Assembly: GCA_016180525.1 (NCBI GenBank)
Contig: JACPBB010000003.1
Span: 1-38,394 of the forward strand
Direction: 5' to 3'
DNA length: 38,394 nucleotides
Source: Parcubacteria group bacterium
Lineage (GTDB): Bacteria; Patescibacteriota; Minisyncoccia; Phycocordibacterales; UBA2135
The notes beneath the pieces were generated by a model. That model was given only the letters and a program-made list of their open reading frames with translations. It was not told where the DNA came from and did not search any database. A program made the position numbers and the translations under genes. Below, one piece after another: positions 12,231 through 35,493 of this stretch (position 1 is its first letter; each line of letters starts with the position of its first letter).

Positions 12231-12764
12231 ATGAAAATCCTTGAAAGACCTGTTGCCATTACCGATGTTGAAACTACCGGCCTTGATTCAACAATCCAGG
12301 AAATTATTGAAATCGGATTGATTTTAGTTAATCAGCAAACCCTTGAAATTATGGACACCCTTGATATTAAGGTACGGCCAGAACATCTTGAAACTGCTAC
12401 AGAATTCGCTTTAAAGCTTAACGGTTATAACGCGCATGATTGGCAAAATGCATTGACACTTCAAGCGGCTATGCAGTTATACGGCGAAAAAACAAAAGAC
12501 GCTATGTTCTGCGCCCATAATGTAACATTTGATTGGGCGTTTATTTTTGAGGCTTTTAAAAAAACTGGCATAAAAAATGCTATGGATTATCACCGAGTTG
12601 ATCTTTTCACAATAGCATGGATGCAGCTCCGAGGCTCCGGTCTTGAAAAATTCAACATGAATGAAGTAGCAAAGTATCTAGGAATTCCAGAAGAGCCGAT
12701 GCCTCATCGAGCCATCAACGGCACAATGACTGCTTACGAAATTTACAAACGATTAATTTCATAA
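12231..12764 (+). CDS. DnaQ-fold (DEDDh) 3'-5' exonuclease-like protein with altered motif III
   Basis: The 177 residues match the exonuclease fold of DNA polymerase III epsilon. Motif I is TDVETTGLD (Asp12, Glu14) and motif II is HNVTFDWAF (His96, Asp101). Motif III should read HRAxxD but reads HRAING (His159, Gly at 164), so the last metal-binding aspartate is missing. The protein may therefore be inactive or weakly active, or use another acid. AAGGAC eight bases before the ATG is a good ribosome binding site. The gene is a single transcription unit, closed by a terminator at 12768-12795. A proofreading or RNA-trimming role would be the family expectation. Confidence 0.8.
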   Translation: MKILERPVAITDVETTGLDSTIQEIIEIGLILVNQQTLEIMDTLDIKVRPEHLETATEFALKLNGYNAHDWQNALTLQAAMQLYGEKTKDAMFCAHNVTFDWAFIFEAFKKTGIKNAMDYHRVDLFTIAWMQLRGSGLEKFNMNEVAKYLGIPEEPMPHRAINGTMTAYEIYKRLIS

Positions 12765-16394: not shown

Positions 16395-17834
16395 ATGCAG
16401 TGGGAAAAGATAACTTCGTTTAAAACGAGGCACATGCCTCGCGCATATGTAAATTCGCTTGTCCGTTTTCACCATGAATTTTCCGATAAAGAACGGCTAG
16501 AAGCGGCAGAGAAAGCTGGCTGGAACGTATTTCAATTTCCTTCCGAACTGCTCCTTGGTGGCGACCTGCTCTCTGACTCTGGCACTACAACGCTTACGTC
16601 AGAACAACTCTCGGCCATGATACTTGGCGATGAGGCATACGGCACTAATTACGGCTATCCAAAGCTTATTGAAGCATTTGAAAAAACATTTGATATTTCA
16701 GAGGATACTTATGAGATATACATCTTTCATCAAGGACGTGCCGCCGAGCACGCATTGTTTTCACAGCTTGCACAGAGTGTCCCAAAAAACTCCGTGGTTC
16801 CTTCAAACGGACATTTTGACACAACGCGCGCAAATATTGAAGCAAACAATATTGAAGCGCTTGATATAAAGGGGCGCACCGAACAAACGCTTGAACATTT
16901 CAAAGGAAACATGGATATTGCAGCATTAGAAAAACTTTTAAAAGAGGATGGCGAGCGTATTCCTCTTGTATATACAACGATTACAAACAACACGGGAGGA
17001 GGACAGCCGGTATCGCTTCAAAACATCAAAAAAATCCGCGCTCTGTGCGATGAATATGGCAAACCTTTTTTCCTTGACGCGTGCAGGTTTGCTGAAAACG
17101 CTTGGTTTATCAAACAATATGAAGAAAAAACTCTCTCTATTCACGATATTGTGCGCAACATATTTGCGCTCTGTGACGGATTTACTATTTCGCTTAAAAA
17201 AGACGGACTTTCAAATATGGGCGGCGCACTTGTGATTAAAAAAGACTCCATGCTTACAAAAACATATCCGAAACTTTTAAACGACATCAGAGACCACCAA
17301 ATTTTAACGGAAGGACACCCAACATACGGGGGTCTTACCGGCAGAGATATTATGAGTATTGTGGAGGGGTTGAAAACAGTTATAACAGAGCAATACCTTT
17401 CTTCACGAATTGGATTAGTGCGGGCATTTGGTGAATGTATGGACTTTCTCAATATCCCCGTGCTTAAACCATTCGGCGGGCACGCGGTGTATATTGATGT
17501 AGATAAATTTTTTGAAGGGACAAATATGGGGCGAGAAGATTTTGGCGGTATTTCACTCACCGCGCTTCTCCTGCTCAAAGGTGTACGGCTCTGTGAGCTT
17601 GGCGCGTTTGCGTTTGGAAAATGGAATTCTAAAACACAAAAAGAAGAATTTAATGGAAATAACTTTGTCCGATGCGCCGTGCCAAGAAACAAATACGAAC
17701 TGCAGGATTTACAATATGTTGCCGATTGCGTAAAAGGTCTTCATGAGCAAAAAGAAAAAATACCGAAGGCGGTTCCCGTCTATGGCAGAGAACTTACTCT
17801 TCGGCACTTTAAAGCGCGATTTGAATTAAAATAA
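16395..17834 (+). CDS. Tryptophanase / tyrosine phenol-lyase family beta-eliminating lyase
   Basis: PLP enzymes of this family split tryptophan into indole, pyruvate and ammonia, or tyrosine into phenol, pyruvate and ammonia. The 479 residues match the family over their length. TNYGYPKLIEAFEK, the FHQGRAAEH segment, FFLDACRFAENAWFI and the PLP lysine in ISLKKDGLSNMGG (about Lys269) are all visible, as is the C-terminal FVRCAVPRNKYE with the carboxylate-binding arginine. Which of the two substrates it takes cannot be decided. No TnaC-type leader peptide or permease is adjacent. The stop overlaps the terminator of the antisense-oriented RNA gene. The product could supply pyruvate and ammonia. 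Confidence 0.87.
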   Translation: MQWEKITSFKTRHMPRAYVNSLVRFHHEFSDKERLEAAEKAGWNVFQFPSELLLGGDLLSDSGTTTLTSEQLSAMILGDEAYGTNYGYPKLIEAFEKTFDISEDTYEIYIFHQGRAAEHALFSQLAQSVPKNSVVPSNGHFDTTRANIEANNIEALDIKGRTEQTLEHFKGNMDIAALEKLLKEDGERIPLVYTTITNNTGGGQPVSLQNIKKIRALCDEYGKPFFLDACRFAENAWFIKQYEEKTLSIHDIVRNIFALCDGFTISLKKDGLSNMGGALVIKKDSMLTKTYPKLLNDIRDHQILTEGHPTYGGLTGRDIMSIVEGLKTVITEQYLSSRIGLVRAFGECMDFLNIPVLKPFGGHAVYIDVDKFFEGTNMGREDFGGISLTALLLLKGVRLCELGAFAFGKWNSKTQKEEFNGNNFVRCAVPRNKYELQDLQYVADCVKGLHEQKEKIPKAVPVYGRELTLRHFKARFELK

Positions 17835-17857
17835 GGGCCCCGTAGTCGTGGGGCCCT
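17834..17857 (-). terminator. Terminator of the large structured RNA
   Basis: An 8-bp perfect stem (AGGGCCCC at 17834-17841 with its complement at 17850-17857) is followed on the minus strand by TATTTTAA. It overlaps the stop codon of the tryptophanase-family gene and may stop transcription from both sides. Confidence 0.8.
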
Positions 17858-18390
17858 GGCCCTCGCTTCTACGAATCGTCGCAGTCGCGAGGCGTGTGAA
17901 ACCTGTGATTCGTCACGGGTCACTCCTCTTCTTGTTGAAAATGGAAAAACTGTAAAGCTTTCCTCTGGTAATTTACGAGAGTTACCCCTCGCAAACCCAG
18001 GGCAGGACACCCGCAAAGGGCTTAGCTTCCGGAAGCGGTGAACGAGGCGTCCCTCGCCTGCTTGCCTCCTTAAGACCTGCCTCCCATTGCGCGCGCAACA
18101 GAAGGATTTGAAAATTGAAAAAAGAACAATAGCAGGTAACGGCGTGTCCCATACCCCATCTGTGGAGGAATTTGGGAATCGCTCTCAGGGGCCGTATAGA
18201 AGCACCCCGCAAGTGGCCCGTGTCGTTACCTTAGTCCCCTACTACCGTTTCGGGTATGTAAAAACGAAGAGCGAGTCGAGCGTCGAAGAGTATCGATTGA
18301 GAAAACGATACTAGAGCGGCTAACTGGCACGCCTCCCGTTCTGGCTTTCTCATGCAGCTGCTATCGATGCCAATTCTCACGACGCTCGAC
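17834..18390 (-). ncRNA. Large structured RNA, about 560 nt, class unknown
   Basis: No credible coding frame lies here, yet a strong promoter (18398-18425) and a terminator (17834-17857) frame it on the minus strand. The sequence is more GC-rich than its flanks and highly self-complementary. A perfect 11-bp stem (18380-18390 with 18275-18285) closes the 5' domain, exactly at the predicted start of transcription. Further stems are 18135-18141 with 18224-18230, 18001-18006 with 18076-18081, an almost continuous hairpin 17896-17923 with a 4-nt loop, and 17861-17866 with 17887-17892. I looked for the conserved cores of RNase P RNA, tmRNA (tRNA-like ends, tag ending in ALAA), SRP RNA and 6S RNA and did not find them. 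Divergent versions of these remain possible. Transcription and terminator evidence are strong. The identity is open. Confidence 0.75.
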
Positions 18391-18397
18391 ATGTTAA

Positions 18398-18425
18398 AGT
18401 ATACACTTTTAAATATTTTTGTCAA
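18398..18425 (-). promoter_or_regulatory. Near-consensus sigma-70 promoter of the structured RNA
   Basis: On the minus strand TTGACA (18420-18425), a 16-nt spacer and TATACT (18398-18403) form a strong housekeeping promoter. Transcription would start near 18391, at the first base of the 11-bp closing stem. Confidence 0.88.
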
Positions 18426-18543
18426 GCATTTTTTAATGACATCAACTAACTGTCAAAATACATTCTAAACAAAGAGTTTTTTAGAAGCATGAAAAATTTT
18501 CTTATATTTTTGCTCCATAATAGTTGTAAACCCCATAACAAAA

Positions 18544-18561
18544 CCCCCGTTATTACGAGGG
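18544..18561 (-). terminator. Terminator of the 55-residue gene
   Basis: CCCCCGT and ACGAGGG pair with one mismatch around TATT, and a TTTTGTTAT tract follows on the minus strand. The stem overlaps the TAA stop of the small gene. The 118 nt between here and the RNA promoter hold no other feature that I can see. Confidence 0.65.
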
Positions 18562-18720
18562 CTTTTGCAAATCTTTATGAGCTTTTCTTGGTTTGAAAAA
18601 CGTGTCCAGAACAACAGACATGGCACTTTGTGTTTCTTTAAATGCGCGCACTTGTCTCCCTAATGGTTCATCTGGATATCCTTCAAAAACCTGTTGTTTC
18701 TTCACAACAACCATTATCAT
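18553..18720 (-). CDS. 55-residue protein of unknown function
   Basis: ATG at 18720 opens a 55-residue frame starting MIMVVVKKQQVFEGYPDEPL and ending in HKDLQKPS. AAGAGG eight bases upstream is a good Shine-Dalgarno sequence, and a terminator overlaps the stop, so the unit has the layout of a real gene. The protein is soluble and basic with a short beta-like start, and matches no family I know. Its own start is 36 nt after the uvrC stop on the same strand, so it could be the last gene of a uvrA-uvrC transcript. Confidence 0.6.
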   Translation of the reverse strand: MIMVVVKKQQVFEGYPDEPLGRQVRAFKETQSAMSVVLDTFFKPRKAHKDLQKPS

Positions 18721-18756
18721 GATGGTGCCTCTTAATTGAACTAAGCATAGTCTATA

Positions 18757-20076
18757 TCATTTCAACTTTTTTCGCAAGTTTTTTCTGTGAAAAGCGACGG
18801 CAAACCGATGCGCTTCGCTGTTTGCGAGTAGTATTTCTTTTTCATTGTTCTCAATTATTCTCCTGTTCCCTAATATGTTTTTAGGGCGATGGTGTTCATT
18901 TTTTACAACTCCCACAACAGGAATTTGTATTTCATATTTTTTAAAAATATGCTCCACAGCATTCACCTGTGCTTTTCCTCCGTCTACCACGAAAAGCCGC
19001 GGCAGAGGCCATTCGGCGTGTCCAAGTCGCCGTTCAATTATTTCTTTGAGCGCGCCAACATCATTTCCAGTCTCTACTGTTTTAATATTAAATTTTCTAT
19101 AATCGCTTTTTTTTACCACACCGTCTTCAATAACAACCATAACGCCAACAATATGTTTCCCCGCCATGTGTGCCACATCATATGCTTCAATTTTAAAGGT
19201 TGTAGGTTGTAGGTTGCCCGCCCCGCTTCGCTTGGCGAGGCCGGGGTAGGTTGTAGGTTTAATAAGCGAGATATCTTGAATGTGCTTAAGGGCAAATAAA
19301 GTCTTTTTTATCTCCCCTGCTTTTTCAAATTCTCTTTTCTTTGCAGCTGCGTTCATTTCTGAAGTCAATTTTTTTATAATGGTTTTTTTCTTTCCTTCAA
19401 ATAGGAATTTTATATTGCGAATGGTGTTTTGATATTCTTTTTTTGAAATCTCCCCGGTACACACTCCTGGACAAAGACCAATCTGTCTATTGAAACACGG
19501 CTTCCCCAACCCTTTCTTAAAAGACATACCAATATACTCCAGTTTGTCAGTATATTTTTTGTGTGGTGGGATGCATGTGTCGCGAAATAGAAAAATTTTG
19601 CGGATAATTTTGAGTGCTTCTTTTAGGGTGCTTCCTTGGGGGAAAGGACCGAATGCGGATTTAAGATTTAAGATGTCAGATTTATGATTTGAAATTTTGT
19701 TTTGTAAAATTTCTTTTTCCCGGACGAGAAGGATTCGGGGGAAATCTTCATCGGTGATGATAACGTAGTTAAAACTTTTATCGCTTTTTTCTTTTGTGTT
19801 ATATATTGGCTGGTATTTTTTAATTAAGTTTGCTTCCAAAATCAACGCTTCAAGCACTGAATCTGTTTTTATACAATCAACGGTTTTTGCTTCAGAGAGC
19901 ATTTTTTGTATAAGAGGACCACGTGATTCAACAATGTCTTTGTTAAAGTAACTCCTCACTCTGTCGCGAATCGATGTCGCTTTGCCAACATATAAAACTC
20001 TCCTCTTTTTCCCGAGAAACATATATACCCCCGGTGAATCAGGCAATTTTTTTGCTTTTTCTAAAAGACTTGACAT
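18757..20076 (-). CDS. uvrC: Excinuclease ABC subunit C, lacking the C-terminal HhH domain
   Basis: UvrC makes both incisions around a lesion after UvrA and UvrB have found it. The 439 residues contain the GIY-YIG nuclease (PGVYMFLGKKRRVLYVGKA, 15-33), the cysteine motif CFNRQIGLCPGVC, a UVR helix pair for UvrB binding and the RNase H-like nuclease (EAYDVAHMAGK to LFVVDGGKAQVNA). The chain ends soon after EAHRFAVAFHRKN, where most UvrC proteins (about 600 residues) continue into a tandem helix-hairpin-helix DNA-binding domain. That domain is absent. Two low-complexity insertions, at about residues 125-145 and 272-293, are encoded by repeat-like DNA (19655-19700 and 19197-19265). uvrA lies 41 nt upstream on the same strand. 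Confidence 0.93.
   Translation of the reverse strand: MSSLLEKAKKLPDSPGVYMFLGKKRRVLYVGKATSIRDRVRSYFNKDIVESRGPLIQKMLSEAKTVDCIKTDSVLEALILEANLIKKYQPIYNTKEKSDKSFNYVIITDEDFPRILLVREKEILQNKISNHKSDILNLKSAFGPFPQGSTLKEALKIIRKIFLFRDTCIPPHKKYTDKLEYIGMSFKKGLGKPCFNRQIGLCPGVCTGEISKKEYQNTIRNIKFLFEGKKKTIIKKLTSEMNAAAKKREFEKAGEIKKTLFALKHIQDISLIKPTTYPGLAKRSGAGNLQPTTFKIEAYDVAHMAGKHIVGVMVVIEDGVVKKSDYRKFNIKTVETGNDVGALKEIIERRLGHAEWPLPRLFVVDGGKAQVNAVEHIFKKYEIQIPVVGVVKNEHHRPKNILGNRRIIENNEKEILLANSEAHRFAVAFHRKNLRKKLK
19197..19265. repeat. GC-rich palindromic element inside uvrC, flanked by short tandem repeats
   Basis: Four copies of the octamer TTGTAGGT flank a GC-rich core (TTGCCCGCCCCGCTTCGC and on to GGCGAGGCCGGGG). 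It adds about 21 residues between the UVR helix pair and the RNase H-like domain of UvrC, where family members have only a short link. The first 18 bases of the core nearly repeat those of the uvrB element at 26786-26827. Confidence 0.7.
19655..19700. repeat. AT-rich repeat inside uvrC
   Basis: The plus strand reads as variations on AGATTTAAGAT and GATTTATGATTTGAAAT. It is closely similar in wording to the non-coding stretch at 34256-34330. In frame it encodes the NKISNHKSDILNLKS stretch, placed where UvrC proteins usually have a few residues before the FGPF/YP motif. Confidence 0.6.
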
Positions 20077-24411: not shown

Positions 24412-24516
24412 TCCTCCGTCAGGAGAAACGGAGTGGCACTATTGCCACACCGGCCACCGGTCAACGGCAGCGGTTTGTTCAGTTTCGGTACAAAAACCGA
24501 ACAAACCGCTGCCGTT
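24412..24516 (-). promoter_or_regulatory. Highly structured 5' leader with sequestered ribosome binding site
   Basis: A perfect 18-bp stem (24463-24480 with 24499-24516) is followed, in the direction of transcription, by a 6-bp stem (24433-24438 with 24443-24448) and by CTCCG/CGGAG (24414-24418 with 24429-24433) that takes up most of the Shine-Dalgarno GGAGGA at 24412-24417. There is no T run after the long stem, so it is not a simple terminator. An on/off switch of translation is inferred. No known riboswitch consensus is recognised. Confidence 0.55.
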
Positions 24517-24540
24517 AACACTTCAAGATACTCTTTTTGC

Positions 24541-35041: not shown

Positions 35042-35493
35042 TTAATTTTTTGTTAGCGCAAGCACTTTTTCAGGAGGTCTTCCTAAAACAGCCCTGTCGC
35101 CCTTAACGACAATCGGCCGTTCAATTAAAATAGGATTCTTCGCCATAATTAAAATGAGCTCCTCATCGGACAAATCTTTTTTAGCGACCTTCTTTTTATA
35201 TGCTTCCTCATTTGTCCGAAGGATATCTTTTGGTCTTTTCCTAAGTTTTCGCAATGTGTCTTTTAATTCTTTTTCTGTCGGGGGATGCTTTAAATATTCA
35301 ATAAAAGCAACTTCGTCTTATATTAACTCCTCGGCTCGGCAGTGAGAAAATTCCGCTTCGCTCAGTTTTCTCACTGCACTCGCTCTACGTCGCTAATAAT
35401 TTCAAAGTCAACACTGCTTTTTTCTAAAAGGGCGAAAGTAGCACGTGATTTACTGCACCGTGAGTTATGATATATTATTATCTTGTCACGCAT
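35042..35493 (-). pseudogene. arsC/Spx-family gene broken by a palindromic insertion
   Basis: Two halves of one ArsC-like (arsenate reductase/Spx family, thioredoxin fold) protein lie in different frames. The first runs from ATG at 35493, through the redox motif YHNSRCSKSRATFALLEK (Cys at 13), to a premature TGA at 35371-35373. The second, to the TAA-type end at 35042, carries EYLKHPPTEKELKDTLRKL, the family RP-containing segment AKNPILIERPIVV and GRPPEKVL. About 80 nt separate the two, formed by a GC-rich palindrome (stem 35339-35350 with 35366-35377). The start ATG overlaps by one base the TGA of the CARDB gene upstream, so it was once translationally coupled to it. An assembly error is possible but the inserted sequence has the look of a repeat. 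Confidence 0.75.
35325..35395. repeat. Palindromic element disrupting the arsC-like gene
   Basis: A perfect 12-bp stem, GCAGTGAGAAAA with TTTTCTCACTGC, encloses a 15-nt loop TTCCGCTTCGCTCAG. The word CCGCTTCGC also occurs in the uvrC element. Imperfect pairing extends outward to ATTA/TAAT at the edges. It has stops in the frames that it interrupts. Confidence 0.7.

Follow-up and report, generated by a model that had tools for sequence, protein, structure and literature searches.

The question raised by this locus is whether a GC-rich gap between convergent genes of a Parcubacteria group bacterium holds the gene of a large structured RNA, and, if so, whether that RNA belongs to a known family. 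The DNA analysed, here called the window, is a stretch of 38,394 nt (38 kb) that forms part of contig 5 of a genome of 946 kb and 97% completeness. On the minus strand the gene order is uvrA, uvrC (names assigned from the sequence), a short open reading frame (ORF) with its own terminator, and then the RNA region. From the opposite side a gene for a beta-eliminating lyase (PF01212 in Pfam) converges on this region and ends at 17834, its stop codon abutting the terminator of the RNA. Downstream of the RNA, the next gene on the same strand is not met before 16330. As the whole convergent lyase gene would have to be crossed to reach it, a role as leader or riboswitch is unlikely, and this gene order makes a trans-acting role the most likely one.

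The signals expected of a separate transcription unit are in place (Table 1). The promoter reported by the first-pass annotation is present, and a site of equal quality was found in 16 of 3000 dinucleotide shuffles (0.5%) of the 139 nt upstream, while the 38-kb window contains only four such sites on its two strands. The putative start of transcription, at about 18391, lies 7 nt past the -10 box and one base ahead of the perfect 11-bp stem, in agreement with the earlier claim that start and closing stem coincide. The terminator claimed for the other end was recovered as well, and promoter, start-site stem and terminator together make up a complete transcription unit, which counts in favour of an RNA gene. 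That the RNA would also be strongly transcribed, as first described, is suggested by the promoter.

Table 1. Predicted features of the RNA region, listed in the direction of transcription (window positions).
Feature	Position	Strand	Basis
Promoter TTGACA-16-TATACT, near-consensus sigma-70-type	18398-18425	minus	11 of 12 consensus bases, 16-bp spacer
Predicted transcript, about 558 nt, noncoding, structured	17834-18391	minus	z -5.0; no Rfam match; no coding frame
Domain 1, closed 5' rod with perfect 11-bp closing stem	18275-18390	minus	closing-stem pairing probability 1.00; z -3.2
Domain 2, branched, with GGTAACG/CGTTACC stem, weakly predicted	18130-18273	minus	z -0.6, chance level
U-rich linker, 18% GC	18108-18129	minus	base composition
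Domain 3, hairpins 18095-18105/18080-18090 and 17986-17996/17971-17981 with a stem between	17962-18107	minus	pairing probabilities 0.92 and 0.96; z -2.3
Second AU-rich linker, 27% GC	17929-17961	minus	base composition
3' hairpins 17896-17923 and 17861-17892	17861-17923	minus	pairing probabilities 0.81 and 0.90-0.94
Intrinsic terminator, GC-rich hairpin of 8 bp with 8-nt loop and U-rich tail	17834-17857	minus	hairpin and U-rich tail; abuts lyase stop codon

The base composition of the RNA region sets it apart, with a GC content of 54% compared to 41% in the window and 22% in the promoter flank. Long GC-rich intergenic regions in AT-rich genomes have served as a signature for the discovery of structured RNAs in bacteria (PMC6429828). 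The GC-IGR candidates of that study are similar to the present locus in combining a long GC-rich gap, an AT-rich and gene-dense genome, a promoter and a terminator; unlike the RNA described here, which comes from one genome, they were promoted by comparative evidence. The absence of a protein-coding frame noted earlier was borne out, as the minus strand at the RNA has no ORF of at least 80 amino acids with a start codon, and no Pfam match was obtained with the longest stop-to-stop frames of either strand.

Folding of the whole transcript was better than in any of 100 shuffles (z -5.0), and this was also the case when the terminator was removed (z -3.5; 0 of 100), while the opposite (plus) strand folds more weakly (z -2.2). 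The signal is uneven, much of it being located at the two ends of the transcript, and the 3' part including the terminator reaches a z of -5.7. The closing stem of domain 1 (18380-18390 with 18275-18285) consists of 11 perfect pairs; five of 200 shuffles gave a perfect stem of this length or longer. The four further stems claimed by the first-pass annotation are all present, but their support differs. The stem 17861-17866/17887-17892 has a pairing probability of 0.90 and the hairpin 17896-17923 is partly supported, through its apical stem 17905-17908/17913-17916 (0.81), whereas the 6-bp stem GGCAGG/CCTGCC (18001-18006/18076-18081) and the 7-bp stem GGTAACG/CGTTACC (18135-18141/18224-18230) occur at least partly in folds of the isolated domains and stay below 0.5 in the full-length ensemble. 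A sliding scan of the window revealed other intergenic hairpins with similar or stronger z values, and folding energy alone is therefore no proof of a functional RNA.

In order to relate the RNA to known families, Rfam 15 was run at the curated cut-off and, for the region 17700-18760, at E-values of up to 10. This comparison to all of Rfam, which the first-pass annotation had proposed, gave no match to any family even at the relaxed threshold, RNase P (RF00010), tmRNA (RF00023), SRP, 6S, OLE, ROOL and GOLLD included. SRP RNA and 6S RNA were discarded as candidates, no covariance-model match being obtained at E-values of up to 10, and so were introns and riboswitches, for which Rfam gave no match. 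With tmRNA, a housekeeping RNA, the present RNA shares the character of a large structured RNA, but ARAGORN finds no tmRNA in the window and the canonical tmRNA of the genome (RF00023), which scores 105.5 bits and contains a reading frame for the tag, is located at another site, on contig 1 (G000:C1:233127-233535). The tag of this tmRNA as given by ARAGORN (L009, 1503-1909, the same locus) is long, reading ANLFSKVESALASLFGVDRVGFAPAYA. OLE, ROOL and GOLLD resemble the RNA in size range, in being free-standing and noncoding and in their large amount of predicted structure; one account of OLE RNA gives a length of about 600 nt (PMC9723947). These classes are supported by covariation and form homo-oligomers (PMC12286853), whereas the RNA studied here has neither an Rfam match at E-values of up to 10 nor a homologue among the sequences searched.

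Matches to RF00010 were obtained in nine of 13 genomes of the order, but not in the source genome (G000) or in G002, G007 and G005, the last being only 61% complete. In G000, G002 and G007 no RF00010 match appeared even at E-values of up to 10, a negative result to be read with the caveat that the first-look filter of the search may lose a match of the 5-bit type. All three genomes carry rnpA, the gene of the RNase P protein. Divergent RNase P RNAs have been described from the Candidate Phyla Radiation; among 35 circular genomes of that radiation, the RNA was not called in 10, and was recovered there when the RF00010 cut-off was set to 5 bits (PMC8172020). Judging from the slope of score to E-value, a 5-bit match to RF00010 should have an E-value of only a few in one genome, and the negative result at E-values of up to 10 is therefore informative. 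A covariance model specific to the order (R1) was made from the RNase P cores of the nine genomes with a match and spans the conserved core from GAGGAAAGUCCGAAC to GUGCAAGGCCG. It scores 173 and 132 bits in two of its own training genomes, finds nothing in G000 and gives only 13-nt matches of less than 8 bits in G002 and G007. With the filters off, the RNA scored at chance level against R1, the highest values being 7.5 bits (minus strand) and 9.1 bits (plus strand, outside the RNA). The conserved 3' segment of RNase P RNA, ACAGAANUCGGCUUA, is absent from the RNA when up to three mismatches are allowed; the pattern occurs once in the genome, at 12399-12416 of the window, in what looks like a chance match. 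The 5' end of the RNA closes locally after 117 nt and does not pair with the 3' end.

Given the chance-level R1 score, the missing 3' core segment and the locally closed 5' end, a classification of the RNA as RNase P RNA is not supported by its sequence. A stretch at 18338-18352, UGAGAAAGCCAGAAC, resembles the RNase P segment UGAGGAAAGUCCGAAC by eye; it scores 1.8 bits in R1, is part of a predicted helix and was put down to chance. In several genomes of the order the RNase P RNA gene is situated beside a gene for an O-antigen-ligase-like membrane protein, and in two family members it follows a CcdA-like gene. In the two candidate syntenic slots of the source genome, beside the CcdA-like gene in the window and beside a weak match of O-antigen-ligase type on contig 3, no RNase P RNA was found. 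The earlier suggestion of a highly diverged housekeeping RNA is thus not supported, as the tmRNA is found elsewhere and neither Rfam nor the order-specific core model gives a match; the missing RNase P RNA of the genome leaves it a small opening. The real RNase P RNA may be encoded in the unassembled part of the genome or be extremely diverged. Like class A RNase P RNA (RF00010), the RNA is large, noncoding and presumably stable, with a promoter of its own, and a radically diverged form serving as catalytic partner of RnpA would fit with the presence of rnpA in a genome where both models fail to find an RNase P RNA, and with the diverged relatives recorded in the same radiation. Considering the lack of an RF00010 match or of a core score above chance even unfiltered, the absence of conserved core segments and the self-closed 5' end, we regard this identity as very improbable.

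The search for homologues was equally negative. BLAST searches in 60 and in 397 genomes from the order yielded, apart from the RNA itself, only short, mostly AT-rich matches, five of which were inspected and represent unrelated sequence. Covariance models, each built from the single sequence of domain 1 or domain 3 and run with stricter filters on 347 relatives, matched only the source genome. The uvrA-uvrC-lyase arrangement was met in one family member only, G002, whose gap is occupied by other ORFs and a plain terminator, with no such RNA. A scan of the GTDB collection for UvrC yielded nearest records of about 56% identity, named Taylorbacteria, Nomurabacteria and Campbellbacteria, in keeping with a Patescibacteria lineage, and at none of those loci is the lyase or the RNA found; a pattern scan of genome contigs for the lyase, with poor patterns, gave no relative. 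Phages and plasmids contained no convincing match to the RNA, and in five pattern scans of viral contigs four contigs had a match of 17 to 20 nt with no further similarity. As no homologue was found, neither conservation nor covariation can be adduced for the RNA. The comparison to homologous regions in relatives, which the first-pass annotation had advised, thus came back empty by BLAST, by covariance models and by synteny. Absence from relatives had been named beforehand as speaking against a class, and absence is what was found; a lineage-specific RNA is compatible with it.

Taken together, the promoter, the terminator, the lack of a coding frame, the folding beyond chance and the base composition argue for a free-standing gene of a structured RNA. 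The balance of probability tilts slightly towards such a gene encoding a lineage-specific noncoding RNA that probably acts in trans, either by itself or perhaps as a ribonucleoprotein scaffold. RNA polymerase would start at about 18391 from the near-consensus promoter, make a minus-strand transcript of about 558 nt and stop at the terminator adjoining the lyase gene. The product is predicted to fold into a closed 5' rod, a branched domain, a hairpin-rich domain and stable 3' hairpins, with U-rich linkers between, and is likely to be a stable RNA that acts in trans, possibly as a scaffold. Transcription, stability and trans-action are in this case all deduced from the DNA sequence. The missing homologues, the chance-level fold of domain 2 and the hairpins of similar or greater strength elsewhere in the window count against an RNA gene. 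The earlier description of the locus as a large stable RNA, either of housekeeping type or of a new class, can therefore be retained as regards a free-standing structured RNA gene (promoter, fold, terminator, composition, noncoding character), while the claim of a new class is unproven, no homologue being found. That the RNA stands for a new, lineage-restricted class of large structured trans-acting RNAs in Patescibacteria, or at the extreme even an RNase P RNA that has been radically rebuilt, we consider a doubtful though tenable proposition.

Among the rival explanations, the likelihood was judged to decrease from a functionless stretch, via an effect on the lyase gene and a mobile element, to the diverged RNase P RNA discussed above. 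It is unlikely that the region is a functionless or decaying stretch, in which hairpins and a chance promoter happen to lie between convergent genes with weak or no transcription. No relative searched conserves the sequence, G002 does without it in the same gene order, domain 2 folds no better than chance and strong hairpins are present in other gaps of the window, but the joint chance that a promoter, a start-site stem, an elevated GC content and a terminator coincide is small. Less probable is that the RNA is a regulator or by-product of the convergent lyase gene, through antisense pairing of transcripts that overlap at their 3' ends, or through their collision. On the lyase strand a terminator-like site is present only inside the RNA (17905-17923), so that the lyase mRNA may run into it, and the lyase stop codon borders directly on the terminator of the RNA. 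Overlapping 3' ends do not, however, require a folded RNA of 558 nt, and the same lyase in G002 has no adjoining RNA. Antisense targets of the RNA gave chance-level matches only in the sequence examined. About as improbable, and ranked just after the lyase gene, is the insertion into the gap of an RNA element that was either mobile and non-autonomous or acquired by horizontal transfer. This would explain the absence of the RNA from the syntenic gap of G002 and from all relatives searched, and would be consistent with the deviating base composition, but the RNA occurs as a single copy in the genome, and is not flanked by terminal repeats of at least 12 bp, and the searches of phages, plasmids and viral contigs yielded nothing beyond chance.

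Almost no work on noncoding RNA in Patescibacteria was found in the literature, and the RNA, should it be transcribed, would be a large orphan there. The genomes of Patescibacteria are tiny and gene-dense, and an RNA gene of 560 nt that lacks relatives is costly to maintain in such a genome and should have a function. The source genome and two others of the order, which possess rnpA but no recognisable RNase P RNA, also define a testable gap.

Other features of the window were recorded during the analysis. An inverted repeat of 26 nt at 24460-24519, 92% complementary and with a gap of 8 nt, belongs to the strongest folding signals of the window. On the minus strand, a short and very Lys/Arg-rich frame with a terminator-like hairpin of its own is situated between murB and secA (2741-2846). 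Also on the minus strand, at 35294-35482, an N-terminal frame which we take to be ArsC-like (IIYHNSRCSKSRATFALLEKSSVDFEII) is seemingly interrupted by about 100 nt with a 12-bp inverted repeat and resumes in another frame; the interruption looks like a small palindromic insertion.
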